Source: Arthrobacter sp. CJ23
GTDB lineage: Bacteria > Actinomycetota > Actinomycetes > Actinomycetales > Micrococcaceae
NCBI RefSeq assembly: GCF_024741795.1
Contig: NZ_CP102950.1
Span: 4,564,025 to 4,628,024 of the forward strand
Reading direction: 5' to 3'
DNA: 64,000 bases
Shown: positions 8,810 to 25,073 of the stretch, piece by piece
Numbering within the stretch: the stretch's first letter is position 1
Layout: the number at the start of each line of letters is the position of its first letter
Notes under the pieces: model-generated
Seen by the model: only the letters and a program-made list of their open reading frames with translations
What the model was told of the DNA's origin: nothing
Database searches by the model: none
Made by a program: the position numbers and the translations under genes

Positions 8810-10240
8810 TCAGGCCAGGGTGAGCAGCTCCGGCCGGCGGCCGGCCCACGGGAGGACGGCCTCGACGGCGGCACCCACCGTGAACACGGTGGCGTCGTCG
8901 AAGGGGTGCCCCACGATCTGGACGCCTGTGGGGATGCCGCACCCGGCCATGCCGCTGGGCACGGCCAGAACAGGGCAGCGGTTGGCGATGTTGAACGGGG
9001 CCGTCATGTGGCCCTGCCAGTAGTGCTCCAGCTGCTCCCCGTTGGCGTCGATGCCGTCCAGGTACATGCCGTCCGCCTCGAGCGAAGGAACCGCCGAGGC
9101 CGGGCACAGCAGGGCGTCGAAGCCTTCCATCGCCGCGGCCAGCTGGGCCTGGAGCAGGGTTTCGGCCCGGATCCCGTCCACGAAGCGGTTCTGCCGGGCG
9201 GCACGCCTGGCATCGGCCATGAAGCGGCGGGTGTAGGGCGCCAGGAGCTCCTCGGAGCCCGCCGTCTCGTCCTCCATGGCAGGTCCCAGCAGGTAGCCGA
9301 AGTGCGTGAACATGGTCCGGCTGATCGCCTCAACCGTCCAGGGGAGTTCGATCTCCTCCACGGCCGCACCCGCGTCGCGCAGGGCCGCGGCCACGCAGCG
9401 CGTGTTGGCCTCGACGTCCGCCGCCACCGGGTAGTTCCCCAGCCGGATGCACAGGGCGATCCGCAGGCCGGCCACGGATGCGGCCGGCGCGTGGAATTTG
9501 TGCGGAGGGACGTCTGCCAGCGAGGTGTGGTCGCCGGGGTGGCGGCCCGACATGACATTGGCCAGCAGGGCGGTGTCCGCCACGGTCCGGGCCATGGGCC
9601 CGTCGCCGCGGTAGTGGTCGGCCGAGAGCGGAGCCAGGCCGGGGATCCGGCCGTAGGGTGCCTTGAAGCCGACCGTTCCAGTGAACGACGCCGGCAGCCG
9701 GGTTGAGCCGGCGATGTCCGAGGCCGTTGCCAGCGGGGTGAGTCCGGCGGCCAAGGCGGCGCCCGCGCCGCCGGAGGAGCCACCCGGCGAGAACTGCAGG
9801 TTCCAGGGGTTCCGGGTGACTCCCCACAGGGGACTGTGGGTGACGGTGGCGCAGCTGTATTCCGGGGTGGTGGTGCGGGCGTGGATGATGCCGCCCGCAC
9901 GCTGGATCCGCTCCACAACGGGGTGGTCCTCCGCGGCGTACTCGTCTTTCCTGGCCACCAGGCCCTGGGAAAGCGTGCGCCCCTTGATGCCGTGCTTTTC
10001 CTTCGTCGCCACGGGCAGGCCCAGCAGCGGGGTGAGGTCCCGGCCGCGGGCGTAGCGGATGGCGGCCTGCCGGGCGGCGGGCAGGGCCTCCTCGAACAGG
10101 GTTTCCGTCAGCGCGTTGACGCCCCCGTTCACGGCCTCGGTCCGGGCCATCACGGCTTCCAGGAGTTCCACCGGGGACAGCTCGCGGCTGCGGAACATGC
10201 CCAGGGCCGTGGTGGCGTCGAGGTAGTGCAGCTCGGTCAC
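8810..10240 (-). CDS. Amidase-signature hydrolase
   Basis: A 476-residue amidase with the Ser-cisSer-Lys triad: K80 (GLPVATKEKHG), the Gly/Ser loop GGSSGG at 153-158, and the nucleophile S179 in DIAGSTRLPA. The family hydrolyses carboxamides to acid and ammonia in the cytoplasm. Its start overlaps the stop of the upstream amidohydrolase by four bases, so it is the third gene of the transporter-amidohydrolase-amidase operon. It probably handles an amide or carbamoyl intermediate of the same pathway. The exact substrate is unknown. Confidence 0.88.
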   Translation of the reverse strand: MTELHYLDATTALGMFRSRELSPVELLEAVMARTEAVNGGVNALTETLFEEALPAARQAAIRYARGRDLTPLLGLPVATKEKHGIKGRTLSQGLVARKDEYAAEDHPVVERIQRAGGIIHARTTTPEYSCATVTHSPLWGVTRNPWNLQFSPGGSSGGAGAALAAGLTPLATASDIAGSTRLPASFTGTVGFKAPYGRIPGLAPLSADHYRGDGPMARTVADTALLANVMSGRHPGDHTSLADVPPHKFHAPAASVAGLRIALCIRLGNYPVAADVEANTRCVAAALRDAGAAVEEIELPWTVEAISRTMFTHFGYLLGPAMEDETAGSEELLAPYTRRFMADARRAARQNRFVDGIRAETLLQAQLAAAMEGFDALLCPASAVPSLEADGMYLDGIDANGEQLEHYWQGHMTAPFNIANRCPVLAVPSGMAGCGIPTGVQIVGHPFDDATVFTVGAAVEAVLPWAGRRPELLTLA

Positions 10241-11553
10241 GCGGCACCGCCCGCCGTGACGCCGGCGGTGCCGGCTCCCGCCGTCGCCAGGCCCGCCGTC
10301 GCGTGTTCCTGACCCGCCGGGGCTTCCAAGGCGCCGGCAAGCAGCTCCCGCGCCACCCCGGTGAGCATCGCCAGGCCGGTGACCATGTCGGCGTCGGTGG
10401 TGAATTCACGCTCGCAGTGCGAGACGCCATCCACGCTGGGGATGAACAGCATCACGGACGGGGCCACGGTGTTCATGGCCACGGAGTCGTGCCCGGCCAT
10501 CGTCTGGATGCGCCGGGACGAGAGCCCCAGCCTGCCCGCCACCTTCGCGGAGAGCTCGAGCCCGGCTTCCGGGAAGCGGCGGATGGGGCGGATGTCGAAG
10601 TCCTTCACGTTGACCTTGATGTCGTGCTCGCGGGCCAGGGCGTCGATCTGCTCCAGTAAGGCAGCGCGCGCCGCGCCGACAATCTCCGGGTCTCCGGAGC
10701 GCAGGTCCGCCACAAGGTGCACGCGCCGGGCAACCACGATGGGCGAGTTCGGTTCCAGGGTCAGCTGCCCCACCGAGGAGACCAGGGCTTCCTCGGCAAA
10801 GTCCTTGGTGACGTCGTGCACCATGAGGATGATCTTGGAGGCCGCCACCAGGGCGTCGTGCCGGTCGGCCATGGCCGTGGCGCCGGTGTGCGACTGCTCG
10901 CCGAGGACCTCGATGTCCAGCTTCTGCGTGTACCAGCTGCTGTCCACGAGGCCGATGTTGATGCCTTCCCGTTCCAGGATGCGGCCCTGCTCGATGTGGA
11001 TTTCGGCGTAGCCGGCCACGTCCGGGCCCGCGGCGGTGCCGAGGTAGCCGATGCCGTCCAGGGCTTCCCGCACGGTCACGCCCTGCAGATCGGTGACGGC
11101 CAGCATCTTTTCGCGGTCCAGAAGCCCGGCGAACACCGAGCTGCCCATGATGCTGGGCGCGAAGCGGCCGCCTTCCTCGTTGAACCAGTTGACCACGGCC
11201 AGGTTGAAGCGCGGGGCCACGCCGGATTCGGCCACCTCGAGGTCGATGGCGCGGGCGGCGTGCAAGGCCGCGATGACGCCGTACGCGCCGTCGAAGCGGC
11301 CGCCCAGCGGCTGGCTGTCCAGGTGCGAGCCGATCACCACGAACGGCGCGCCCGGGGTCCACTCCAGCAAGCCGAACATGTTGCCGATGCCGTCCACGCG
11401 GGCCTCCCAGCCGGCCCGGCGCACCCACTCGGCGAACCAGGTACGGGTGCGGGCGTCGTCGGCCGTGGCGGCCTGGCGGTCCACGCCGTTGTTGGGCGTG
11501 GAGCCGATGGTGGCCACGTGGTGGAAGTCTTTGAGGAAGGCATCTGCGCTCAT
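10237..11553 (-). CDS. M20-family amidohydrolase (hydantoinase/carbamoylase type)
   Basis: Zinc amidohydrolase of 438 residues related to N-carbamoyl-L-amino acid hydrolase, allantoate amidohydrolase and beta-ureidopropionase. Metal-ligand motifs visible in order are GSHLDSQP, GGRFDGAYG, NEEGGRF, HIEQGRILE and SHCEREF. A frame extending upstream to 11712 overlaps the transporter gene and is not credible; the start MSADAF at 11553 is used. The final 25 residues are Ala/Gly/Thr-rich. It is the middle gene of an operon, with a 40-base gap to the transporter and an ATGA overlap with the amidase. The substrate (carbamoyl amino acid, ureido acid or similar) is not resolved. Confidence 0.87.
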   Translation of the reverse strand: MSADAFLKDFHHVATIGSTPNNGVDRQAATADDARTRTWFAEWVRRAGWEARVDGIGNMFGLLEWTPGAPFVVIGSHLDSQPLGGRFDGAYGVIAALHAARAIDLEVAESGVAPRFNLAVVNWFNEEGGRFAPSIMGSSVFAGLLDREKMLAVTDLQGVTVREALDGIGYLGTAAGPDVAGYAEIHIEQGRILEREGINIGLVDSSWYTQKLDIEVLGEQSHTGATAMADRHDALVAASKIILMVHDVTKDFAEEALVSSVGQLTLEPNSPIVVARRVHLVADLRSGDPEIVGAARAALLEQIDALAREHDIKVNVKDFDIRPIRRFPEAGLELSAKVAGRLGLSSRRIQTMAGHDSVAMNTVAPSVMLFIPSVDGVSHCEREFTTDADMVTGLAMLTGVARELLAGALEAPAGQEHATAGLATAGAGTAGVTAGGAA

Positions 11554-11593
11554 GTGAAGTCCTTGATTCAGTGGTGGAAGTGGGGAGCGGGCC

Positions 11594-12955
11594 TTAGCCC
11601 ATGCGTCCGCGGGTCTCGGGCACCCTGGTGAAGAGCACCAGGAGAAGTACGACGGCGGCAGCGGCCGCCATGTAGACGCCCGGGGCGTGCGGCACGCCGC
11701 TGGCCCCCACAAGGGCGGTGCCGATGAACGGGGCGGTGCCGCCGAAGATCGCGTAGGCGCCGTTGTAGCTGACGGCGGCCGAGGTGAAGCGTGTCTTGGT
11801 GGTGAAGATTTCGACGAAGAAGGTGTAGCAGCCGCCGCCGTAGATGCACAGGGCCACCACGAAGATCGCCTGGCCCAGCAGGGCGAGGGGCAGGCTGCCG
11901 CTGGTCACCAGCATGAAGCTGGGCACGGACAAGATGGCGATGGCGGCGGAGCCGGCGATCAGCATGGGCTTGCGGCCGAAGCGGTCGCCCAGGCGGCCGC
12001 CGATCGGCAGGAGCACTGCGTACAGGGCCAGGGCGCCGGCGTTGATGAGGAGCGACTGTTCGCGGCTGAGGTGGCCCGTGGTCTGCACGTAGGAGACGAA
12101 ATAGGCCGAGAGGAAATAGAAGCCCATGGCGGTGAGGCCCATGACGAAGATGACCTGGAGCATGCGGAGCTTGTTCTCGCGGAAGGCCTCGCGGATGGGG
12201 CTGAATTCCTTGGCCTGGCTGGCCTTGGCGTCCTTGAAGGCGGCGCTTTCCTCGGTGCGGCTGCGGATCCAGACCCCGAAGAGGGCCAGCGGGAGGGCCA
12301 GGAGGAACGGCAGGCGCCAGCCCCAGGCGATGAAGGCCTCGTTGGGCATGGACTGGCTCAGGATCAGGATCATGGTGCCGGCCACCACCGAGGGCAGGGC
12401 CGTGGCCGCGATGGTGATGTTGAGCCAGAAGCCGCGCTTGCTGACGGGGGCGTGTTCAAAGACGAACGACGGTGCGCCGACGGACTCGCCGCCGGCGGAG
12501 AACCCCTGGACGAGCCGGCAGAGGACCAGCAGGGCCGGCGCCCAGGCGCCGATCTGCGCGTAGCCGGGCAGCAGGCCCATGAGCGCGGTGGCACCGCCGA
12601 TGGCGATGAGCGTGATGGTGAGGACCCGGCGTCGGCCGATCCTGTCGCCGAGGGCGCCGAAGAACAGGCCGCCCAGCGGCCGCACCACGAACGCGACGCC
12701 GAAGGTGGCGAAGGTGGCCAGCATGGCGGCCAGCGGGTTGCTGCCGGGGAAGAACAGCTGGGAGAAGATGACGGCGGTGAGGCCGTAAAGCGTGAAGTCG
12801 TAGAACTCGATGAACTGGCCGACGCTGCCGCCCAACAGGACGCGCCGCTGCATTTTGGTGATCTTGGGGGCCTGTGCGGATCCGGTCAGGCCGGGGGTCG
12901 TCTGTGCCTCCACGGCTCCAGGGACCGGCTGGGTCTTGGTGTCGTTAATGGTCAT
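11594..12955 (-). CDS. MHS-family MFS transporter
   Basis: A 453-residue proton symporter of the metabolite:H+ symporter group, with 12 predicted membrane segments. Family signatures are IEFYDFTLYG near the first helix, GGLFFGALGDRIGRRRVL in loop 2-3 and the GFSAGGESVGA stretch. These carriers import organic acids, osmolytes or aromatic acids. As first gene of the operon it presumably imports the substrate of the two hydrolases. An upstream frame start at 13030 is less likely than the ATG at 12955. Confidence 0.88.
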   Translation of the reverse strand: MTINDTKTQPVPGAVEAQTTPGLTGSAQAPKITKMQRRVLLGGSVGQFIEFYDFTLYGLTAVIFSQLFFPGSNPLAAMLATFATFGVAFVVRPLGGLFFGALGDRIGRRRVLTITLIAIGGATALMGLLPGYAQIGAWAPALLVLCRLVQGFSAGGESVGAPSFVFEHAPVSKRGFWLNITIAATALPSVVAGTMILILSQSMPNEAFIAWGWRLPFLLALPLALFGVWIRSRTEESAAFKDAKASQAKEFSPIREAFRENKLRMLQVIFVMGLTAMGFYFLSAYFVSYVQTTGHLSREQSLLINAGALALYAVLLPIGGRLGDRFGRKPMLIAGSAAIAILSVPSFMLVTSGSLPLALLGQAIFVVALCIYGGGCYTFFVEIFTTKTRFTSAAVSYNGAYAIFGGTAPFIGTALVGASGVPHAPGVYMAAAAAVVLLLVLFTRVPETRGRMG

Positions 12956-13000
12956 TACAGCCACGCTCCTTTGGCGGTGCGGGCACATCCGGCGCGATTC

Positions 13001-13015
13001 AGATTCATCGAATCT
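13001..13015. promoter_or_regulatory. Inverted repeat AGATTC-ATC-GAATCT upstream of the MHS operon
   Basis: A perfect repeat with six-base arms lies 46 bases before the transporter start. Two TTGATCA motifs (13020-13026 and 13151-13158) lie in the same 250-base intergenic region. This is a candidate operator for an unlinked regulator; no regulator gene adjoins the operon. Inference only. Confidence 0.3.
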
Positions 13016-13206
13016 CCTATTGATCAGCATGGTGTTCCGGGTTTCGGGCTGCCGGCAGGAGTTCGAATTCCTGCCGGCGGGCCCCCAATCCGCCCGACAA
13101 GATCAACTGTGTGTGACTGGCTTCACATCTGTCCAATTGATTGTTTTTGCTTGATCAATAGATTTTGCTTATGGAGATGCCGGCACCGCCGCCGGCCAAT
13201 GGACGC

Positions 13207-14595
13207 CTAGACGAACTGGTAGATCAACGCCGCCATCCCGAAGCCCACCACGGACAGCACCGTCTCCAGGACAGTCCACGTCTTCAGCGTGTCCTTGACG
13301 GACATGTTGAAGTATTTGGAGATGATCCAGAAGCCGCCGTCGTTTACATGGCTGGCAATGATCGAACCCGAGGAGATTGCGATCGCGATCAGGGCCAGCT
13401 GGGGCTGGGAGTAGCCCGAGGCCAGGCTCGGCGCCAGGATGCCGCCCGTGGTCACGATGGCAACCGTGGCCGAGCCCTGGGCGATGCGCATGCCCGCACT
13501 GATCACGAAGGCCGAAAGGATGATCGGCAGGCCCGCCTGCGACAGCGAATCCGCTACGGCCTTGCCAACACCGGTGGCGGAAAGGACCGCGCCAAAGAAC
13601 GCACCGGCACCAACAACCAGCAGGATCATGCCCACCGGACGCAGCGAGGAGCCCGTGATTTCGCTGAGTTCGGCGGAGGTCATGCCGCGTCGGATGCCCA
13701 GGAGCCACATGGCAAGCAGCACGGCCACGGTCAGCGCGATGGCCGGGTTGCCGAAGAACTGAAGCGTGTCACGGAAGGGGCCGGCAGGAGCGAAGATGTT
13801 GCCGAAGGTGCCACCCAAGATGAGGATCATGGGCAGGCCGATGGCCAACAGCACCAGCCCGATGGACGGCTCGTGGCCCTTGGCCTCCTCGGCTTCGGGG
13901 ACGATCCGGTCCTCGGGAACAGTGATCATGACGCGCTTGCCGATCCAGGTGCCCCACAAGATGCCGGAGGCGAACCAGGCCGGGATACCGCAGATGAGGC
14001 CCATGAGGATGATCCAGCCAAGGTCCACGTGGAACAGGCCGGCGGCCGCAACGGGTCCGGGGTGGGGCGGCAGGAACGCGTGCGTCACGGAGAGGCCTGC
14101 GAGCAACGGCAGGGCGTAAAGCGCGAGCGACTTGCCGCCGCGGATGGCCGCCACGTAGACCAGCGGCGCCAGCACGAAGATGCCGATGTCGAAGAAGACG
14201 GGGATACCGAGCACGAAGCCGGTGATGCCCATGGCGAGCGGCGTGCCCTTCTCGCCGAAGATCTTTACGAGCCTGCCCAGCAGCACCTCCGCACCGCCGG
14301 ATCGCTCAAGGATGGCGCCGAGCACGGTGCCGAGGCCGATGATGACCGTGATGTGGCCAAGGATGCCGGCGAAGCCCTTCTCAATGAGGGCGTCGCTGCT
14401 CTTGGTGGCTGAGCCGACCAGCGCCTCCACCGATATCCCGCCCACCAGGGCCACGATCACACCGGTGCCCACCAGGGCGATGAAGGGTTCGAGCTTGACC
14501 TTGATGATCAGGAACAGCAGGAGGGCGATGCCGGCTCCCGCCAGGAGGAGCAGGCCTGCGGTGTCGTGCCGCAGCCATTCAAGGAATTCATTCAT
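13207..14595 (-). CDS. GntP-family gluconate/aldonate permease
   Basis: A 462-residue integral membrane permease with about 12-14 hydrophobic segments. It matches the GntP family, with stretches such as GIPVFFDIGIFVLAPLVY and HAFLPPHPGPVAAA. The family imports gluconate, 2-keto-3-deoxygluconate, D-glycerate or D-serine by proton symport. It is the last gene of a minus-strand operon (ammonia lyase, deacylase, KDPG aldolase, permease), 23 bases after the aldolase. An aldonic acid such as glucosaminate or its N-acyl form is the inferred cargo. Confidence 0.9.
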   Translation of the reverse strand: MNEFLEWLRHDTAGLLLLAGAGIALLLFLIIKVKLEPFIALVGTGVIVALVGGISVEALVGSATKSSDALIEKGFAGILGHITVIIGLGTVLGAILERSGGAEVLLGRLVKIFGEKGTPLAMGITGFVLGIPVFFDIGIFVLAPLVYVAAIRGGKSLALYALPLLAGLSVTHAFLPPHPGPVAAAGLFHVDLGWIILMGLICGIPAWFASGILWGTWIGKRVMITVPEDRIVPEAEEAKGHEPSIGLVLLAIGLPMILILGGTFGNIFAPAGPFRDTLQFFGNPAIALTVAVLLAMWLLGIRRGMTSAELSEITGSSLRPVGMILLVVGAGAFFGAVLSATGVGKAVADSLSQAGLPIILSAFVISAGMRIAQGSATVAIVTTGGILAPSLASGYSQPQLALIAIAISSGSIIASHVNDGGFWIISKYFNMSVKDTLKTWTVLETVLSVVGFGMAALIYQFV

Positions 14596-14618
14596 GGACG
14601 TTTCTTTCTCGGTAAGTC

Positions 14619-15254
14619 CTACTTGAGGGCGCCGGTGAAGGCGGCGGCCCTGGCCGAAATGTCGGCCCAGTGGCCGGCTGCCACTGCTGCCGGGGGAACA
14701 ACGCTGGTTCCGCAGCAGACGGCCGTGGCTCCGGCGTCGAGGTAGCTCATTGCGTTGGTGGCATCGATGCCACCGGAGGGGAGGAGACGGATTCCCGGAT
14801 ACGGACCCTGGAGATCCTTGAGGTAGGCCGGACCGAGCTGCCGGGCCGGGAAGATCTTGACCACCGAAGAACCCAGGTCGAGGGCCTGCGCCACCTCTGT
14901 GGGTGTCATGGCGCCGAGGCTGAACGGGATTCCGGCGGCCGCGGCTACGGCAGCCACCTCCGGGCGGAGTCCCGGAGTCACCAGGAACCGGGCGCCGGCG
15001 TCCAGGGCTGCCCGGGCCTGGTCTGCGGTCATGACCGTGCCGATCCCGACGGCGACGCCATGCTCCGCGGCGGTCTCCGCGGCACGCTGGACGTGCCGGA
15101 GCACATCCGGCGTGGTGAAGGTCAGCTCCACCGTGCGGATGCCGCCGTCGGCCAGCGCCCGGCAGAGATCCGCGGCGTCCGGGATGGATGCGGCGCGGAC
15201 CACGGCGAGCGTGCGGTCGGCTTCGAGCTGCTGGACGAATTCCTCAGGGGTCAT
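14619..15254 (-). CDS. eda: 2-keto-3-deoxy-6-phosphogluconate aldolase
   Basis: A 211-residue class I aldolase that cleaves KDPG to pyruvate and glyceraldehyde-3-phosphate. The Schiff-base lysine is K133 in VVKIFPA, the catalytic glutamate E43 in TVELTF, and the phosphate loops are TPG at 93-95 and PSGGI. The length is standard. AAGGA precedes the ATG by six bases, and the start overlaps the upstream deacylase stop (ATGA). It supplies the last step of the route shared with the KDG kinase encoded in the divergent operon. Confidence 0.92.
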   Translation of the reverse strand: MTPEEFVQQLEADRTLAVVRAASIPDAADLCRALADGGIRTVELTFTTPDVLRHVQRAAETAAEHGVAVGIGTVMTADQARAALDAGARFLVTPGLRPEVAAVAAAAGIPFSLGAMTPTEVAQALDLGSSVVKIFPARQLGPAYLKDLQGPYPGIRLLPSGGIDATNAMSYLDAGATAVCCGTSVVPPAAVAAGHWADISARAAAFTGALK

Positions 15255-16894
15255 TGTTGTCCTTCTCGGGTGAGTCCGTCGCTGCTGCGACGCAGAGCGC
15301 GGCCGGCACGGGCGCCAGTGGGCTGGCCGCCGTCGATGGCTGCCGTGCCGTTGACGAAGACGTAGCGGATGCCAATGGCGGCCTGGCGCGGATTTTCAAA
15401 GGTGGCTTCGTCGCGGACGGTTTCCGGATCGAAGAGCACGACGTCGGCCGCGTAGCCTTCGCGGACCAGTCCCCTCTTGTGGAGCTTGAGTCGTGCGGCC
15501 GGACGGCCAGTCAGGTGATGGACCGTTTCCTCGAGGCTCAAGAGTCCGAGGTCGCGGGAGTAGTGGCCGAGATACCGCGGGAACGTGCCCCAGGCGCGGG
15601 GGTGTGGCTTGGCGCCGACAAGGAGACCGTCGCTGCCCCCGGTGTGCGTGCGGTGCTTCATGATGGCCTGCACATTTTCCTCGTGGCCAACGTGCTGCAG
15701 GATGCCGGTGCCGAGGCGGTCGTCCCGGAGGATCTGCGCGAAGACGTCGAACGGCTCGCTGTTGGCTTCCGCCGCGATGTCCTTGATGGTCTTGCCCACG
15801 TAGCCTGCGAGCGCCGAGTTCTGGACGCCGCTGATTTCCAGGGTGTCCCACTCGGCCACCACGCCGTGGCAGCCGTCGGAGCCGTAGATCTCCACGCTTT
15901 CGCGGATCTTCGCCAGGGTGTCCGGATCGGACAGGCGGTCCAAGGTGGCCTGGGTGCCGCCCGACGACGCCCAGCTGGGGAGGATCGCGGAGAGCGTGGT
16001 GGCGCCGGGCAGGTAGGGGTACGTGTCCAGGGTGATGTCCACGCCGTCGTCCAGGGCTGCGTCGATCAGCTCCAGCAATTCCCCGGCGCGGCCCTTGTTC
16101 TCGGCGAAGTTCATGGTGGCGTGGGACAGGTGCAGGGCGCAGCCGGTGTCCCGGCTCAGCCCGATCATCTCGGCATAGGCGCCCAGCGCTCCCTTGCCGT
16201 AGGAGCGGTGGTGCGGTGCATAGAAGCCGCCCATTTCCCCCACGGTCCGGCAGAGTCCGGCGAGTTCCTCGGTGCGGGCGTACATCCCGGGCGTGTAGGT
16301 GAGTCCGGAGGACATTCCCACGGCGCCTTCCTCCATGGCGGTGCGGATGGCGTCCTGCATTTGCTGCTGCTGTTCGGGCGTGGGGTCGCCTTCGGCGAAG
16401 CCCATCACCATGGCCCGGACGGTTCCCTGGGGCACCAGGTAGGCGGCGTTGGTGGCGATCCGGCCGCCGTGGTCCTCGCGGTCCAGGCGGTCGAGGTATT
16501 CGCCTACGGTCCGCCAGTCCCAGTCGAGGTCCGCGGGGTTGTCGTTCCAGCCGGCGATCTTCTCGCGGACTCCTGCCAGCGTGGCGTCATCCACGGGCGC
16601 GTAGGACAGTCCGTCCTGGCCCAGCAGTTCCGTGGTGACGCCCTGGCTGAGCTTGGCGTAGTGGTCCCTGTTAATGAGCAGCTGAAGGTCGGAATGGGCG
16701 TGCATGTCGATGAAGCCGGGGCTCAGGACCAGGCCTGCGGCGTCGATCGTACGGCCGGCGCCTGTTCCGGTGGCGGTGAGGGTTCCGGCGTCGGCGACGG
16801 CGGCAATCACCGTGCCGTCCAGCAGGACGTCCGCGGGGCGGCGGTCCGCCCCGGTTCCGTCCACAAGGGTGGCGTTGCTGATGAGTGTCTTCAT
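15251..16894 (-). CDS. D-aminoacylase-like amidohydrolase (N-acyl deacylase)
   Basis: Metal-dependent amidohydrolase of 547 residues in the D-aminoacylase group. It has the N-terminal small beta domain, HAH at 65-67 (FIDMHAHSDL) and later metal-site regions around ALHLSHATM and GTGILQHVGHEENV. In known D-aminoacylases a Cys in a GNCG motif is a zinc ligand. Here that motif reads GQDG (92-95), so the Cys is replaced by Asp, which suggests a different metal site and substrate. The start at 16894 has GAGGA six bases upstream. Between an ammonia lyase and a KDPG aldolase, it may remove the acyl group from an N-acyl-D-glucosaminate-like acid. That is inference; an N-acyl-D-amino acid is the alternative. 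Confidence 0.85.
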   Translation of the reverse strand: MKTLISNATLVDGTGADRRPADVLLDGTVIAAVADAGTLTATGTGAGRTIDAAGLVLSPGFIDMHAHSDLQLLINRDHYAKLSQGVTTELLGQDGLSYAPVDDATLAGVREKIAGWNDNPADLDWDWRTVGEYLDRLDREDHGGRIATNAAYLVPQGTVRAMVMGFAEGDPTPEQQQQMQDAIRTAMEEGAVGMSSGLTYTPGMYARTEELAGLCRTVGEMGGFYAPHHRSYGKGALGAYAEMIGLSRDTGCALHLSHATMNFAENKGRAGELLELIDAALDDGVDITLDTYPYLPGATTLSAILPSWASSGGTQATLDRLSDPDTLAKIRESVEIYGSDGCHGVVAEWDTLEISGVQNSALAGYVGKTIKDIAAEANSEPFDVFAQILRDDRLGTGILQHVGHEENVQAIMKHRTHTGGSDGLLVGAKPHPRAWGTFPRYLGHYSRDLGLLSLEETVHHLTGRPAARLKLHKRGLVREGYAADVVLFDPETVRDEATFENPRQAAIGIRYVFVNGTAAIDGGQPTGARAGRALRRSSDGLTREGQQ

Positions 16895-16914
16895 GGCGCG
16901 TGTCCTCGAAGGTC

Positions 16915-18216
16915 CTAGAAAAAGGTGTGGATGAGGTCGACGACGGTCTGGTCGCCATCGGTGTTGCTGTCCGCAAGCACCGGGATGACGGTCCATTTGT
17001 CGAAGGCGGTGCACGGGTGGGACAGGCCCAGCCGGACAACATCGCCGGGGCGCACCGTGGTGGTGCCGGCGTCGAATGTCATGAAGCTGTGCTGGTCATT
17101 GACCGAGGTGATTTCGGCTCCAAGCAGTGGTTCCATGGGTCCGCCGAGGGCCGGGCCGATGAGCTGCGGCTCCGGCAGTCCTTCGTCGAACGGGAGGTCC
17201 CGTTTGCCGGCGTCCAGGATGGCCAGTCCGGGCTCGGTCTGGGACACGACCCGCGCCCAACCGTGCATTGCGGCAGCGAATGGCCGGCCGCCTTCGCGGG
17301 AAAACGGCGAGATGCCGCGGTAGAAACCGTCGTCGTGGATGATGTACGCGCCGCTGCGGATCATGAGTTGGACGCGGGGAGCTGTGCTGGTGGAGATGCA
17401 CGGCGACAGGACCGTGACGACATCGTCGAAGTAGGCACTGCCGCCTGCCGTGAGGATCACGGAGTCGGTGCCGTAGAGGCCGTCGGCCAGCAGCTGCTCG
17501 TGGAGCAGCCGCATCTTGGCGAGGTAGCCGCGAACGGCGGCCAGGGCGGCGTCGTCCGCTGTGTGCGCCAGCGAGCCTTCGTAGCCGCTGACTCCCACCA
17601 GCCGCAGGTTCGGCGAGACCGCAATGGCGCGGGCAAGCTGCAACGCGGCCTCAACAGAGCGGGCACCGGTCCGGCCGCCATGGGCGCCGAGCTCCACGAG
17701 GACGTCCAGCACAGCATCGCTGCCCGCCAGGGTCCGGTTGATGACGTCCACGGTTCCCAGGGAGTCAATCCAGGAAAGGATCTTGGTGTCCTCGGGCGCG
17801 CCGGCAACCCACTGAATCGCGTGCGGGTCGGTGAGGCTGTTGGCGAGCTGGAGGTTCCGGACGCCGAACTCCCGGGCCACGCGGAGCTGCGCGAAGTTGG
17901 CGAGCGTGATGCCCCAGGCGCCGCGGTTGAGCTGCTCGGTCCAGAGCTGCGGCGCCATGGTGGTCTTGCCGTGCGGCGCCAACAGCACGCCGTGTTCCTT
18001 GCACCACTCGGACAGGCGATCGGCGTTGGCTTGGAGCGCAGAGGAGTCAAGCGTCAGCAGCGGGGTCTGGAGCTCGGCCAGGGTGTGCTTTGCGGCGACG
18101 AAGTCCGCGTGGGTGGTCCCGTTGGCGGTGGCGGGCACGGCCTTGTGCCGCCAGTCGAGCCGGCGTTCTGCGAGGCCGGCCACGGCGGTTGCCGAAATGG
18201 CTTCGGAAGTGTTCAC
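16915..18216 (-). CDS. PLP-dependent D-serine dehydratase-like ammonia lyase
   Basis: A 433-residue fold-type III PLP enzyme of the DSD1/D-threonine-aldolase group. An alanine-racemase-like barrel carries the PLP lysine at K84 (PHGKTTMAP), and the C-terminal beta domain holds the metal pair H400 and C402 in SHPCTAFDKW. Family reactions eliminate water and ammonia from D-serine or cleave D-threonine; D-glucosaminate dehydratases also act on PLP-bound 2-amino acids to give 2-keto-3-deoxygluconate. Its neighbours (KDG kinase, KDPG aldolase, RidA) favour the last role here, as an inference. The start is GTG at 18216 with AAGGGA upstream. First gene of the operon. Confidence 0.85.
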   Translation of the reverse strand: MNTSEAISATAVAGLAERRLDWRHKAVPATANGTTHADFVAAKHTLAELQTPLLTLDSSALQANADRLSEWCKEHGVLLAPHGKTTMAPQLWTEQLNRGAWGITLANFAQLRVAREFGVRNLQLANSLTDPHAIQWVAGAPEDTKILSWIDSLGTVDVINRTLAGSDAVLDVLVELGAHGGRTGARSVEAALQLARAIAVSPNLRLVGVSGYEGSLAHTADDAALAAVRGYLAKMRLLHEQLLADGLYGTDSVILTAGGSAYFDDVVTVLSPCISTSTAPRVQLMIRSGAYIIHDDGFYRGISPFSREGGRPFAAAMHGWARVVSQTEPGLAILDAGKRDLPFDEGLPEPQLIGPALGGPMEPLLGAEITSVNDQHSFMTFDAGTTTVRPGDVVRLGLSHPCTAFDKWTVIPVLADSNTDGDQTVVDLIHTFF

Positions 18217-18298
18217 GCGTTCATTCCCTTCGCGGTGCTGCGTTTTTGAAGCTGCGGTGTGGGGTTGTGTTGGCTGAGGTTTCGCTTGCGTTGCGTAA

Positions 18299-18318
18299 TT
18301 TGCAACGCTGGTTGCAAA
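18299..18318. promoter_or_regulatory. Perfect palindrome TTTGCAAC-GCTG-GTTGCAAA, candidate IclR operator
   Basis: Eight-base perfect arms with a four-base spacer lie in the 244-base divergent promoter region between the ammonia-lyase and KDG-kinase operons. A further GTTGC half-site lies at 18290-18294. The IclR gene in the right-hand operon is the obvious candidate to bind it and control both operons. Confidence 0.6.
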
Positions 18319-18460
18319 CCTGCTGGTGATATGTCTAACATGGTGGCGGATTGGGAGTCAAGGCCGCGGCACGTCCGCAGAGCCGTCCAATCCGCCGCGG
18401 AACGCTCCGTACCGCGGCGTCCGAGTGCCGCTGAAAAGCGCAAGAGTGAGTGGGGAGAAC

Positions 18461-19483
18461 ATGCTTTCAGCTGTATGTGTTGGCGAGACGATGGCCATGC
18501 TCACCCCTGTCCAAGCCGTCCCCCTCCACCTCGCCACCGAGCTCCACTTCGGGATCGGCGGCGCCGAGTCGAACGTCGCCATGGGCCTCGCCGCGATGGG
18601 CCTGGACACCCACTGGGTCAGCCGCGTGGGCCGCGACGGCTTCGGCACCCGGATCCTTCATGAGCTCAGCGAACACGGGGTGGGCGTCTCCGCCGTCGAG
18701 GTTGACGATTCCCTGCCTACCGGCCTTTACGTGAAGGTCCCCGCCCAGGAAGCAGACCCCGACGGCGGCAGCTCGGTGTTGTACTACCGGCAAGGATCGG
18801 CGGCCTCGGCCATGGGACGCGGCACACTGGCCAACCCTGCGGTGGCATCCCTGCTGGAAAGCGCTACCCTCATCCATCTGAGCGGCATCACGGCCGCCCT
18901 CTCCCCTGCGTGCCTCGAACTCCTCGAGGCCATCCTCACTGCGCCCCGGAACGGCCGGACCATCAGCTTCGACGTCAACTGGCGGGCAGCCTTGTGGGCA
19001 GGCCAGGACCGTGGGGTCCTGCAGCGCCTGGCGAACCTGGCCGACGTCGTGCTCGTTGGAAAAGACGAGGCCGAGCACGCCTTCGGCACCACCGACGAAG
19101 CCGAACTCCGCCGGATGATGCCGGACCCGCAAGTGCTGGTCATCAAGAACGAGGCGATCAGCGCTATCGCCCTGGCGCGCGGCGGGGCCGACTCGAGCGG
19201 CACCCGGGAGGAGGTGCCCGCATTGTCCGTCGCCGTCGTCGAGCCTGTAGGCGCCGGTGACTCGTTCGCCGCCGGCTACCTCAGCGGCATGCTGTTCGGG
19301 CTGGGCCAGAAGGCGAGCCTCCGCAGGGGCCATGTGGCAGCCGCCTGCACCCTGACCGTCCACGGCGACCGCGGCCCGCTGCCCGATGCCGCGCAGCTCT
19401 CGGCCATCCTCGATTCTTCGGATGACGCCTGGGCTGCTATCCATGTTGAAGACGGACATTTCAACACCAGAACCGGAGCGTGA
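18461..19483 (+). CDS. kdgK: PfkB-family sugar kinase, probably 2-keto-3-deoxygluconate kinase
   Basis: A 340-residue cytoplasmic ribokinase-fold kinase. It has the N-terminal substrate-side motif GGAESNVAMGLAAMG and the C-terminal anion hole PVGAGDSFAAGY with catalytic base D267. The overall pattern resembles KdgK, which phosphorylates KDG to KDPG with ATP. The KDPG aldolase in the opposite operon supports this; the substrate is not proven. The start ATG at 18461 has GGGGAGA just upstream, and the frame before it shows no homology. First gene of a kinase-iclR-ridA operon. Confidence 0.85.
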   Translation: MLSAVCVGETMAMLTPVQAVPLHLATELHFGIGGAESNVAMGLAAMGLDTHWVSRVGRDGFGTRILHELSEHGVGVSAVEVDDSLPTGLYVKVPAQEADPDGGSSVLYYRQGSAASAMGRGTLANPAVASLLESATLIHLSGITAALSPACLELLEAILTAPRNGRTISFDVNWRAALWAGQDRGVLQRLANLADVVLVGKDEAEHAFGTTDEAELRRMMPDPQVLVIKNEAISAIALARGGADSSGTREEVPALSVAVVEPVGAGDSFAAGYLSGMLFGLGQKASLRRGHVAAACTLTVHGDRGPLPDAAQLSAILDSSDDAWAAIHVEDGHFNTRTGA

Positions 19484-19487
19484 CACC

Positions 19488-20249
19488 TTGAGCCAGAGCC
19501 TCATGCGGGCCATCGACCTGCTCGCCGAACTCGCCGCGAAGCCAGCCACCCTGGACGAGCTCGCGTCCAAGGCATCCGTGCACAAGACCACTGTGATGCG
19601 GCTCCTGCACGCCATGGAGGAGAAGCGCTTCGTGGTGCGCGACGAGGACCAGCGGTTCATGCTCGGCTCCAAGCTCTTCGAACTGTCTTCCCTCGCGCTG
19701 GAGCAGCGGGACATCCGCAAGGTGGCCCACCCGCACCTGGCCGAACTGAACGGCCGCACCGGGCACACCGTGCACCTCGCCGCCTTCGAAGGGAATGAAG
19801 TGGTGTATATCGACAAGTTCGAGTCGCACCACCCCGTCCGCATGTACTCGCGCATCGGCCTGACAGCTTCGCTGCACTCGGCCGCTGTGTCGAAGGTCCT
19901 CCTCGCCGACATGCCGCGCAGCCGGCAGGAAAAGATCGCGGCGGGGCTGGACTACGTGAAAGTTACCGAGAACACCCTGACCTCGCCGGAGGCCCTGTTG
20001 GCCGAACTGGAGCAGGTCAAGGAGCAGGGCTGGGCGCACGACAACGCCGAGCACGAAGCGTTCGTGCACTGCATCGCGGCCCCCATCCGCGACGCCAGCG
20101 GCGCCGTTGTTGCCGCAGCCTCTTGTTCGGTACCGGTAGTGATGCTCAGCTATGAAGGCTTGCTTGAGCTGCTGCCCGACCTCAAAGCCAGCACCGAGGC
20201 CATTTCGCGTGACCTCGGCTGGATCAGCCACGAAAGGAACTCAGCATGA
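19488..20249 (+). CDS. IclR-family transcriptional regulator
   Basis: A 253-residue regulator: a winged helix-turn-helix (about 1-60, LSQSLMRAIDLLAEL then TLDELASKASVHKTTVMRLL) followed by an IclR effector-binding domain (about 75-250). A TTG start at 19488 is preferred: GGAG lies nine bases before it and it follows the kinase stop by four bases. An ATG at 19443 inside the kinase gene is the alternative. IclR proteins usually regulate the adjacent catabolic genes; the 18299-18318 palindrome is the likely target. The inducer is probably a pathway sugar acid (inferred). Confidence 0.87.
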   Translation: MSQSLMRAIDLLAELAAKPATLDELASKASVHKTTVMRLLHAMEEKRFVVRDEDQRFMLGSKLFELSSLALEQRDIRKVAHPHLAELNGRTGHTVHLAAFEGNEVVYIDKFESHHPVRMYSRIGLTASLHSAAVSKVLLADMPRSRQEKIAAGLDYVKVTENTLTSPEALLAELEQVKEQGWAHDNAEHEAFVHCIAAPIRDASGAVVAAASCSVPVVMLSYEGLLELLPDLKASTEAISRDLGWISHERNSA

Positions 20250-20650
20250 GTGAAAAGACCGTAGTACTGACCGAAAACGCCCCCGCCCCGGCGCACGTAT
20301 TCTCCCAGGGCATCAAGAAGGGTGGCCTGTTCCAGGTTTCCGGCCAGGGCCCCATGGACCCCGCCACCAACCAGTACATCGGCGAGGGCGACGTCCGCGT
20401 CCAGACCCGCCGCACGCTGGAAAACGTCAAGGCCATCCTCGAGGCCGGCGGATCCTCCGTGGAAGACGTGCTGATGTTCCGCGTCTACCTCACCACCCGC
20501 GACGACTTCGCCGCCATGAACGACGTCTACGGCGAGTTCATCCGCGAAAACGTCCCCAGCGGTGCCCTGCCGAGCCGCACCACAGTCTTCGTGGACCTGC
20601 CCCATGAGGTCATGCTCGTGGAGATCGACGCACTGGCGGTTACGGCGTAG
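20246..20650 (+). CDS. RidA/YjgF-family imine deaminase
   Basis: A 134-residue trimeric-type RidA protein. The invariant Arg that binds the substrate carboxylate is R111 (PSRTTVFVDLP), and the catalytic-site E126 lies in VMLVEIDAL. RidA hydrolyses reactive enamine/imine intermediates released by PLP dehydratases to ketoacids and ammonia. Its start overlaps the iclR stop (ATGA). The pairing with a PLP ammonia lyase in the facing operon is chemically coherent: it would protect PLP enzymes from the enamine formed when an amino sugar acid is dehydrated. Confidence 0.9.
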   Translation: MSEKTVVLTENAPAPAHVFSQGIKKGGLFQVSGQGPMDPATNQYIGEGDVRVQTRRTLENVKAILEAGGSSVEDVLMFRVYLTTRDDFAAMNDVYGEFIRENVPSGALPSRTTVFVDLPHEVMLVEIDALAVTA

Positions 20651-21780: not shown

Positions 21781-23463
21781 CTACTGCCCCCGCAGCCGGT
21801 GCAGCAGAAGGGCGACGTGCAGGGACGTCCGCGATTCGGCGTCGTCGAGGTCCACGGCCAGCAGCTCCTCCAACTTCGCCAGCCTCGCGTACAGCGTGGG
21901 CCGGCTGAGGTAGCCATTGCGCGCCAGCGCGGCCTTGTTGCCGCCGGATTCGAGGTACTTGCCGAGCAGCTCGAGCAGCCCTTCCCGGCCCTGCGCCTCG
22001 GCCTCGAGCAGGCCGGCGAGCTCCGATTCGGCGAACTGCTGGGCGCGGGGGTCGTTGCGCAGCAGCGCCAGCAGGCCGCGGAGCCGGACGTCGGTGGCCC
22101 GGTAGAAGGGCCGCCGGGACTCGTGCAGGGTGGCCGCGGTTTCGGCGACGTGCGCCGCCTCGTCGATGCCGGCCGCCGCCTCCAGGAGGCTCGCCCGGTA
22201 GCGCCCGACGCCGATGGTCCAGACCGGGGGCGCGTCGCCGGCGTGCGCGGCCAGTGCGTCCGTCAGCCGCTGCAGGGTGGCGTCCTCAAGCTGCCGGGCA
22301 GGCAGGGCCAGGATCATGCCGAGGGAGCCGGACTGGATGCTCGCCGTCAGGGCGCTGCTGGCCGTGGACTTGATCGCCCTGGCCAGCAGGTCGAGCAGCT
22401 TGCGCTCTTCCTCCTGCCCGGCCAGCGGATCGCCCTGCGCGGCAGCGGGCAGCCGGGCGGGAAGCCCGGCGCCGCCATGAGAATCGGGAACCTGTCCGGC
22501 AGGCAGCGCCGTTCGGAACACCACGGGCACGTAGTAGGGCGAGCGCTTGAGTCCCAGCGACGCGGCGCGGGCCAGGGCCTCGGCCTCGCTGAGCCCGCGC
22601 GGCTGCCGGAGCGCATTGAGCAGGCCGGCCTGCGCCTGTTGGGACAGCTCGCGTTTGTCCCGTTCGGCGAGGCGGTTGATGGCCAGGGTCTGGGCCGCGC
22701 GTTCGAGCACCATGGCGGCCATCTCGTCGTCGTCGAGCGCCACCGGGACCACCAGCCGCCCCCACAGCTGCCGCCGTACGCCCACCGGCAACTGCAACCA
22801 TTCTTCGGGGCCGGCGCGCCTTGCGGACCCGTGGGCCTGAGCGGGCGACGGCGTGGTCCGCGAGCGCCGCTCCCAGTCGTCCAGCAGCTCGGTGGTGGCC
22901 AGGTTCCGGGCCGAGTAGGCGAGCACCAGGTGCTGCAGGTCCTCGAGGACCACCGGCGCGCCGATCATGGCAGCGGCCTGTTCCACCACCTGCTGCGTGC
23001 CGGCGCTCTCGAGGCTGAGCACGGTGAAGGCCTCGTGGACGTCCCGGGCGCGCTCCACCCGTTCCAGCTGCTCGGCCACGATCATCCGGTGCACCGTCTC
23101 GGTGATCTGGACGAAGCGGACTCGGTGTTCGAGCACGATGACCGGCAGCTTGGCGGTCCGGGCCGCCGTGCGCAGGGCCGCGAGGCTGCGGTTCCGCTGC
23201 CCCACCAGTTCCACGATGAGGCCCGCCGCGCCGGCCTGCTCCAACGAGCGGATGTACGACGCCGCCACGCCGGGTTCCTTTTCCAGCTCCAGTCCGGTGG
23301 TCAAGACCAGTTCGCCTCCCGAGAGCAGGCCGGTCAGGTCCAGGATTTCGCTGACGTGGACCCAGCGGACGGGCGTGTCGAGGGCGCCGTCGCCGCCCAG
23401 GATGGCCGGTGCGGCATCGCGGAGGACGGCGAGGTCAAGGATGGCACGGACAGTGGGCAGCAT
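21781..23463 (-). CDS. PucR-family transcriptional regulator
   Basis: A 560-residue PucR/CdaR-type regulator. It has an N-terminal PucR effector domain (about 5-130), a long middle region with GGDEF-like remnants, and a C-terminal helix-turn-helix (about 500-555) ending LARNGYLSRPTLYARLAKLEE. The family regulates purine, GABA, beta-alanine or proline catabolism. It is divergent from a semialdehyde dehydrogenase and aminotransferase, its likely targets. Its own ATG forms one end of a 19-base palindrome, which implies autoregulation. Confidence 0.88.
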   Translation of the reverse strand: MLPTVRAILDLAVLRDAAPAILGGDGALDTPVRWVHVSEILDLTGLLSGGELVLTTGLELEKEPGVAASYIRSLEQAGAAGLIVELVGQRNRSLAALRTAARTAKLPVIVLEHRVRFVQITETVHRMIVAEQLERVERARDVHEAFTVLSLESAGTQQVVEQAAAMIGAPVVLEDLQHLVLAYSARNLATTELLDDWERRSRTTPSPAQAHGSARRAGPEEWLQLPVGVRRQLWGRLVVPVALDDDEMAAMVLERAAQTLAINRLAERDKRELSQQAQAGLLNALRQPRGLSEAEALARAASLGLKRSPYYVPVVFRTALPAGQVPDSHGGAGLPARLPAAAQGDPLAGQEEERKLLDLLARAIKSTASSALTASIQSGSLGMILALPARQLEDATLQRLTDALAAHAGDAPPVWTIGVGRYRASLLEAAAGIDEAAHVAETAATLHESRRPFYRATDVRLRGLLALLRNDPRAQQFAESELAGLLEAEAQGREGLLELLGKYLESGGNKAALARNGYLSRPTLYARLAKLEELLAVDLDDAESRTSLHVALLLHRLRGQ

Positions 23464-23479
23464 TTACATAGTGTAAATG
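23461..23479. promoter_or_regulatory. Palindrome CATTTACA-TAG-TGTAAATG covering the pucR start codon
   Basis: Perfect eight-base arms with a three-base spacer. The left end is the pucR start codon itself. It lies in the divergent promoter region about 110 bases before the dehydrogenase gene. A bound regulator here would block pucR directly. Inferred operator. Confidence 0.5.
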
Positions 23480-23585
23480 CTGGAACGGATTCCTTTACAG
23501 GATGCCTCTTATGGGGCCGTGGCGCGGCGGACAGACTGGAGCCAACACACAGCAACCACCCCTTTCCGAACCACGCAGGAGAACC

Positions 23586-25073
<1,488 letters not shown>

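Follow-up and report, generated by a model that had tools for sequence, protein, structure and literature searches.

A predicted IclR-controlled module for catabolism of an oxidized N-acetyl amino sugar in Arthrobacter and other actinobacteria

The closest described counterpart of the genes considered here is the ong cluster of Pseudoalteromonas prydzensis, whose role in N-acetyl-glucosaminate (GlcNAc1A) catabolism was demonstrated by knockouts and assays; according to the main text of that work, complete ong sets occur in Gammaproteobacteria and in one Achromobacter (PMC9537276). We examined a seven-gene locus (positions 13207–20650) in a 64,000-nucleotide stretch of Arthrobacter sp. CJ23, hereafter the window, which lies at one end of a contig of 4.63 Mb. 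This locus would use the same chemistry with other parts. We read it as an IclR-controlled catabolic module for an oxidized N-acetyl amino sugar, most likely GlcNAc1A from C1-oxidized chitin, and assign this reading a probability of about 0.86. The observations behind it are the gene content, its conservation, a shared operator and the genes that neighbor this operator. Actinobacteria are major degraders of chitin in soil. For the fate of oxidized chitin chain ends in these organisms, we propose a full pathway that can be tested and whose operator is defined; the route has so far been described mainly in marine gammaproteobacteria, and related clusters recur across many actinobacteria.

A conserved seven-gene locus

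Pfam and NCBIfam assign the seven genes to two divergent operons. The minus arm encodes a pyridoxal phosphate (PLP) enzyme, a deacylase, a 2-keto-3-deoxy-6-phosphogluconate (KDPG) aldolase (Eda) and a GntP permease; the plus arm encodes a 2-keto-3-deoxygluconate (KDG) kinase, an IclR regulator and RidA (Table 1). The initial annotation had named the same seven families, and all seven are present as it described. It had also placed them in two facing operons; the two operons stand, with their arms back to back rather than facing. Four-base-pair overlaps join Eda to the deacylase and IclR to RidA, and a kinase/IclR overlap is possible, depending on the IclR start.

To define related loci, we scanned with a three-deacylase alignment (window, Tsukamurella and StoSoilB13), kept the top 80 of the 545 confirmed relatives and counted genes within 6.5 kb of the deacylase, a range that contig ends cut short at some loci. 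The deaminase is nearby in 80/80 loci, RidA in 78, IclR and the kinase in 75 each, GntP in 61 and Eda in 45. All seven genes occur together in 31 of the 80, and the combination of deacylase, deaminase, RidA and KDG kinase, encoded together in the window, recurs in 73. In a clustering of neighbor genes from 91 loci, predicted by a simple codon-usage script, the seven families appear in 48–87 loci each and the next family in only 15. Co-occurrence of the set is far beyond chance. A Tsukamurella plasmid, from another order of bacteria, retains the exact gene order. Within the window’s genus the deaminase is found in 26 of 121 genomes (E ≤ 1e-100), and in a class sample of 296 genomes 93 have a deacylase at E ≤ 1e-60, which reaches at least 456 bits in 51.

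Table 1 Predicted features of the locus (window coordinates).
Feature	Position	Strand	Evidence
GntP-family permease	13207..14595	-	PF02447 418 bits; gntP subfamily 376 bits (cut-off 293)
KDPG aldolase (Eda)	14619..15254	-	PF01081; TIGR01182 eda 184 bits (cut-off 156 exceeded)
D-aminoacylase-fold amidohydrolase (deacylase)	15251..16894	-	PF07969; PDB relatives AfDam, BbDam, OngB
Fold-III PLP D-serine-dehydratase-like enzyme	16915..18216	-	PF14031 and PF01168, both over cut-off
Operator GTTGCGTAATTTGCAACGCTGGTTGCA (predicted)	18290..18316	.	Three half-sites RTTGCR/YGCAAY/RTTGCR between both promoters
PfkB-family KDG kinase	18461..19483	+	Top PDB match T. thermophilus KDG kinase 1v19, 147 bits
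IclR-family regulator	19443..20249 (start uncertain, 19386-19503)	+	PF01614 and PF09339
RidA-family enamine/imine deaminase	20246..20650	+	PF01042; TIGR00004 103.9 bits, slightly under cut-off 106

Other arrangements occur among the relatives. L021, L060 and L075 carry minimal sets, RidA plus deaminase–deacylase–GntP, and perhaps act on a different substrate. Deacylase homologs of 44–53% identity (L103–L107, L111, L112) possibly belong to related pathways with other substrates; a KdgK-like kinase accompanies RidA in L104, L105 and L107, where no deaminase was recognized, and L111 has an ATP-binding cassette (ABC) importer. In Kribbella (L050, 12380–18574) genes for an ABC importer, a GntR regulator and an enzyme of the enolase superfamily come after the cluster, and GntP was not found. 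A record titled Sporosarcina beigongshangi (L026) appeared to extend the module to Firmicutes. We dropped this candidate, as the record's G+C content is 68% and its cluster resembles that of Arthrobacter; this G+C content marks it as a probably misassigned or contaminated actinobacterial record, and it supports no claim.

Elsewhere in the window, a major facilitator superfamily (MFS) gene (11594–13030) falls outside the conserved unit because its homolog is near some loci only. Together with amidase-like and amidohydrolase-like genes, both named by eye, it adjoins the locus (8810–13030) in what resembles a separate amide catabolic operon. On the other side (21781–25073), a PucR-family regulator is divergent from a gene that by eye resembles an acylating semialdehyde dehydrogenase. 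Neither Rfam at its gathering cut-offs nor a tRNA scan matched anything in the window.

A shared operator and clues to the substrate

The operator core TTGC-N7-GCAA-N6-TTGC occurs once per divergent gap in 80 of 83 loci, in a single orientation throughout, and zero times elsewhere in the 1.709 Mb of those 83 loci. Because the motif was discovered in the same gaps, the gap count is not independent; the actual tests are its absence elsewhere and its regulon. Two of the three loci without an exact core carry one with a single mismatch, and the third is L060, where IclR, kinase and Eda are all absent.

We searched 35 genomes with RTTGCR-N5-YGCAAY-N4-RTTGCR at up to one mismatch, using the reversed motif as a control. 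The operator gave 61 matches versus 14 for the control. Taking 35 as the clusters’ own leaves 26 extra sites: six upstream of a lactonase, five upstream of a substrate-binding protein (SBP)–permease–permease–GH20 operon, two upstream of an off-cluster Eda, two some 320 bp upstream of a further ABC importer operon (L124, L137) and 11 unexplained. Under a rough chance model (20 suitable genes, 400 bp upstream of each, 7.2 Mb), the probability of 13 of the 26 falling at pathway genes is about 4e-32. Across a further 50 class-sample genomes with a deacylase homolog, the operator matched in 37, with 6 control matches. One Streptomyces-like genus (g30, 26 genomes) contributed 45 extra sites from 23 genomes, all of which we inspected. 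Forty lie within about 300 bp upstream of Eda (22), SBP–permease–permease–GH20 (12), GH20 (3) or a lactonase (3), and the g30 clusters lack Eda because it lies elsewhere under the same operator. The other five are unexplained (L147, L161, L172, L178, L183), with a GH20 gene about 1.0 kb downstream of L147 and another about 0.6 kb downstream of L183. None of eight extra sites in other genera (L192–L199) has a pathway gene, and the extra sites of G236, G037 and G189 fall outside the inspected set. Lactonase, Eda, permease and GH20 labels were confirmed by Pfam for all members tested; the remaining labels are by BLAST similarity.

The same partners also appear inside the operons of relatives. A lactonase adjoins the module in 11 loci, directly after GntP in ten (nine with gaps of 15–71 bp, one with 433 bp) and beside RidA on the opposite arm in Actinospica. 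PF10282 was confirmed in 7/7 lactonases tested, and each of the remaining four shares at least 93% identity with one of these. Seven Amycolatopsis loci have a longer operon, which extends through a binding protein and two more genes to GH20, a beta-N-acetylhexosaminidase; GH20 was confirmed in every one of them, as were the binding protein and the two permeases of L032. Judged by eye, twin-arginine-like leaders are present at 5/7 lactonase N-termini (none in L082; L116 is possibly cut short), a clear leader is present in 0/6 GH20 proteins, and 3/3 binding proteins are lipoprotein-like. In G106 the deacylase and GH20 form a single 1080-residue frame adjacent to the deaminase. A search with this fusion listed 120 proteins, query included, at 70% identity or more, with both domains in each; those with a name are Microbacterium, apart from one unplaced metagenome-assembled genome. 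A bifunctional hexosaminidase-deacetylase is predicted in Microbacterium. G248 encodes GH20, deacylase, deaminase and RidA in a single run with an ABC importer further along, the deacylase identity being only 33–36%.

It is this evidence from outside the window, namely the in-operon lactonase, ABC importer and GH20, the deacylase-GH20 fusion, and the operator shared with distant Eda, lactonase and ABC-GH20 genes, that points to an oxidized N-acetyl amino sugar. It fits the breakdown of an oxidized chito-oligosaccharide or N-acetylhexosaminate, probably GlcNAc1A, and not of D-amino acids. The catabolism of N-acyl-D-glucosaminate suggested by the initial annotation thus gains support, with the acyl group and the epimer (Glc, Gal or Man) being what we infer from sequence.

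For the enzymatic steps, as for IclR binding and its ligand, we infer the following scheme. GntP would import the GlcNAc1A monomer; the window protein is predicted to be such an importer, scoring 199 bits against the D-serine transporter DsdX model (cut-off 618), with the gluconate-type model well above. The deacylase, a metal-dependent amidohydrolase with a GQDG motif and Asp for the Cys ligand, belongs to another branch than OngB, is predicted to deacetylate N-acetyl-glucosaminate and would yield D-glucosaminate and acetate. The PLP enzyme, a predicted glucosaminate ammonia-lyase, would eliminate the 3-OH and ammonia to produce KDG, while RidA would clear the enamine/imine; its top PDB match is the D-serine deaminase 3gwq (190 bits), and the HPC motif is retained in the alignment. 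The kinase would convert KDG to KDPG. Its first-ranked PDB match of 51 makes a KDG kinase its nearest characterized relative by sequence, and NCBIfam models for kinases of KDG or 2-keto-3-deoxygalactonate (KDGal) lead, yet stay under their cut-offs (145 bits versus 440, 142 versus 400). Eda would then cleave KDPG into pyruvate and glyceraldehyde-3-phosphate; its nearest natural PDB relative is the T. maritima KDPG aldolase 1wa3 (132 bits), plus designed proteins derived from 1wa3, versus only 68 bits for the 2-keto-3-deoxy-6-phosphogalactonate (KDPGal) aldolase 2v81. The IclR protein, whose top NCBIfam equivalog is KdgR (183 bits, under the cut-off of 275), is predicted to bind the operator, with its three half-sites, between the two arms. 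The regulon of Amycolatopsis, Streptomyces and related genera would be larger, with an ABC importer, a lactonase that is secreted in most cases and a cytoplasmic GH20 for the release of GlcNAc1A from oxidized chito-oligosaccharides.

The deacylase branch and competing explanations

We compared active sites in PpOngB numbering, by sequence alignment alone, for 79 of the 80 loci (L090 has no called gene). Cys97 is replaced by Asp, Glu226 by Tyr, Ala256 by Asn, Ser290 by Gly and Ser292 by Thr in 79/79, and Lys254 by Thr in 78/79. Equivalents of His68, His70, His222, His252, Asp368, Tyr194, Tyr285 and Arg379 are retained. The Cys/His/His metal site of subtype V amidohydrolases is thereby altered, with Asp at the Cys97 position in the window and throughout the aligned loci, and both His and Asp368 kept. 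The OngB signature Ser290/Ser291/Ser292/Gln298 reads Gly/Ala/Thr/Lys in the window, the alignment near 298 being gapped and uncertain. In a 30-row tree drawn with a midpoint root for display only and not including BbDam, OngB groups with AfDam and the actinobacterial clade lies beyond a long branch with 100/100 support. These active-site residues and the separate clade led us to reject the window deacylase as an OngB orthologue.

Since the deacylase lies on a separate branch from OngB, its activity was probably recruited separately; if its function is as proposed, this suggests that GlcNAc1A deacetylation arose twice. We consider it likely that a second, independent GlcNAc1A deacetylase with Asp for the Cys ligand emerged from the D-aminoacylase fold and, inside an actinobacterial IclR regulon or a Microbacterium GH20 fusion, channels chitin ends oxidized by lytic polysaccharide monooxygenases (LPMOs) to the lower Entner-Doudoroff pathway in soil. 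Separately, PDB entries 9g5m and 9gv8, titled ‘Amidohydrolase family protein’, have the OngB diagnostic residues (SSSQ) and cluster with OngB, and probably represent a GlcNAc1A deacetylase structure.

The altered pocket also bears on the substrate. The same pathway logic could serve an epimeric N-acetylhexosaminate, N-acetylgalactosaminate (GalNAc1A) or N-acetylmannosaminate (ManNAc1A), or a different N-acyl group: the sugar-contact positions 226, 290 and 292 are unlike OngB in all loci aligned, and GH20 enzymes accept both GlcNAc and GalNAc. We consider this unlikely, given that Eda is nearest to KDPG and not KDPGal aldolase, that the kinase is nearest to KDG kinase, and that chitin is much the most common source.

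Several observations weigh against GlcNAc1A catabolism. The window deacylase scores 285 bits against AfDam and 191 against PpOngB in the PDB search, lacks the OngB specificity residues, and departs at Lys254 and Cys97; as far as the main text of PMC12017989 goes, Lys254 and the metal ligands are strictly conserved across OngB, AfDam and BbDam types. Kinase and Eda are not nearby in 5/80 loci, three of which also miss IclR. In the 35-genome search, 13 of the 26 extra sites are unconnected to the counted pathway genes, and 13 of the 50 further genomes with a deacylase homolog have no operator match, including the fusion genome G106; IclR was not seen at the loci of operator-less G106 and G158. 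The Arthrobacter genome itself has no AA10 LPMO (0 PF03067 matches), a lactonase homolog of only weak similarity (34%), and no second operator, its one exact site being the sole match at up to one mismatch. Finally, LPMO co-occurrence at the genus level (7/15 genera versus 24/99) is not significant (p = 0.115).

Some of these points would suit a module that breaks down N-acyl-D-amino acids and D-serine or D-threonine, with kinase and aldolase as accidental neighbors. The proximity to AfDam and the Thr at the Ser292 position fit this explanation, as do the absence of nearby kinase, IclR and Eda at L021, L060 and L075, the amino-acid ABC transporters that adjoin related deaminases on Klebsiella and P. 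silvicola plasmids, and the activity of OngC on D-Ser and D-Thr. It does not account for a kinase within 6.5 kb in 75/80 loci, for the 22 + 2 sites at which this operator precedes an off-cluster Eda gene, or for the GH20 fusion and lactonase in relatives. Kinase conservation and the operator-linked Eda, GH20 and lactonase genes led us to rule it out as the main function, and we hold it to be very improbable. Under the proposed GlcNAc1A pathway, D-aminoacylase and alanine racemase annotations such as those in Tsukamurella gain a new reading.

The absence of an AA10 LPMO and the single operator indicate that the host is probably a monomer scavenger. At two mismatches its genome has two further operator matches versus 11 control matches; it encodes two Eda-family aldolases and one GH20, located elsewhere, with none in the window locus. 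AA10 LPMOs occur in 85/296 actinobacterial genomes sampled, in 39/51 with a deacylase of at least 456 bits versus 46/245 others, a genome-level excess that arises because a few well-sampled genera contribute most. GH20 is present in 10/15 genera with the deacylase versus 25/99 others (p = 0.0023, kinship uncorrected).

Comparison with known systems

Among the matches listed from the literature on GlcNAc1A and glucosaminate catabolism, chitin LPMOs and oxidized chito-oligosaccharides, an actinobacterial version appears in no title or abstract, subscription papers and supplements being outside this scope. The titles and abstracts among the matches listed likewise contain neither a Microbacterium hexosaminidase-deacetylase fusion nor a Streptomyces IclR/chitin link, nor any account of the fate of oxidized chitin chain ends in actinobacteria. 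The main text of PMC12017989 makes no mention of Streptomyces, actinobacteri-, Actinomycet- or Arthrobacter, and the word actinobacteria is absent from the main text of PMC9537276.

The deacylase on a Cupriavidus campinensis plasmid (L009, 5028–12367) is truly of OngB type; it is encoded together with GntP, KdgK, Eda, RidA and an RpiR-type regulator, and the whole is by its sequence a betaproteobacterial ong-like cluster using GntP. An ong-type Vibrio locus has homologs of the deaminase, deacylase, kinase and Eda in a single run, as would be expected if the window locus were an ordinary horizontal copy of a proteobacterial ong cluster. The long, fully supported branch between the actinobacterial deacylases and OngB with AfDam, and the differences in regulator, transporter and operator, make such a copy scarcely credible.

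The initial annotation had pointed to a marine Pseudoalteromonas precedent with the same chemistry; that precedent is real (PMC9537276). At the level of single proteins, the window kinase aligns with T. thermophilus KDG kinase 1v19 at the GGAE-NVA, YYR-GSA and GAGD stretches, its substrate being assigned by sequence alone, and the deacylase shares the D-aminoacylase fold family with PpOngB (PMC12017989; PDB 9kb1, 9kb3) at 33% identity, the window chain being longer. Like the window, the P. prydzensis ong cluster combines a D-aminoacylase-fold deacylase, a fold-III PLP deaminase, RidA and a KDG kinase. The GH20 of the published cluster (OngA) has its counterpart in the regulon of the window’s actinobacterial relatives, and the Eda of the window in the kdgA of the Vibrio, Klebsiella and Serratia versions. 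The systems differ in their regulators (MurR/RpiR versus IclR), in their transporters (sodium-solute-symporter-type (SSS) and TonB-dependent versus GntP in the window or ABC in other actinobacterial loci), in the lactonase that accompanies the window’s relatives, unlike the ong cluster, and in the branch from which each deacylase comes.

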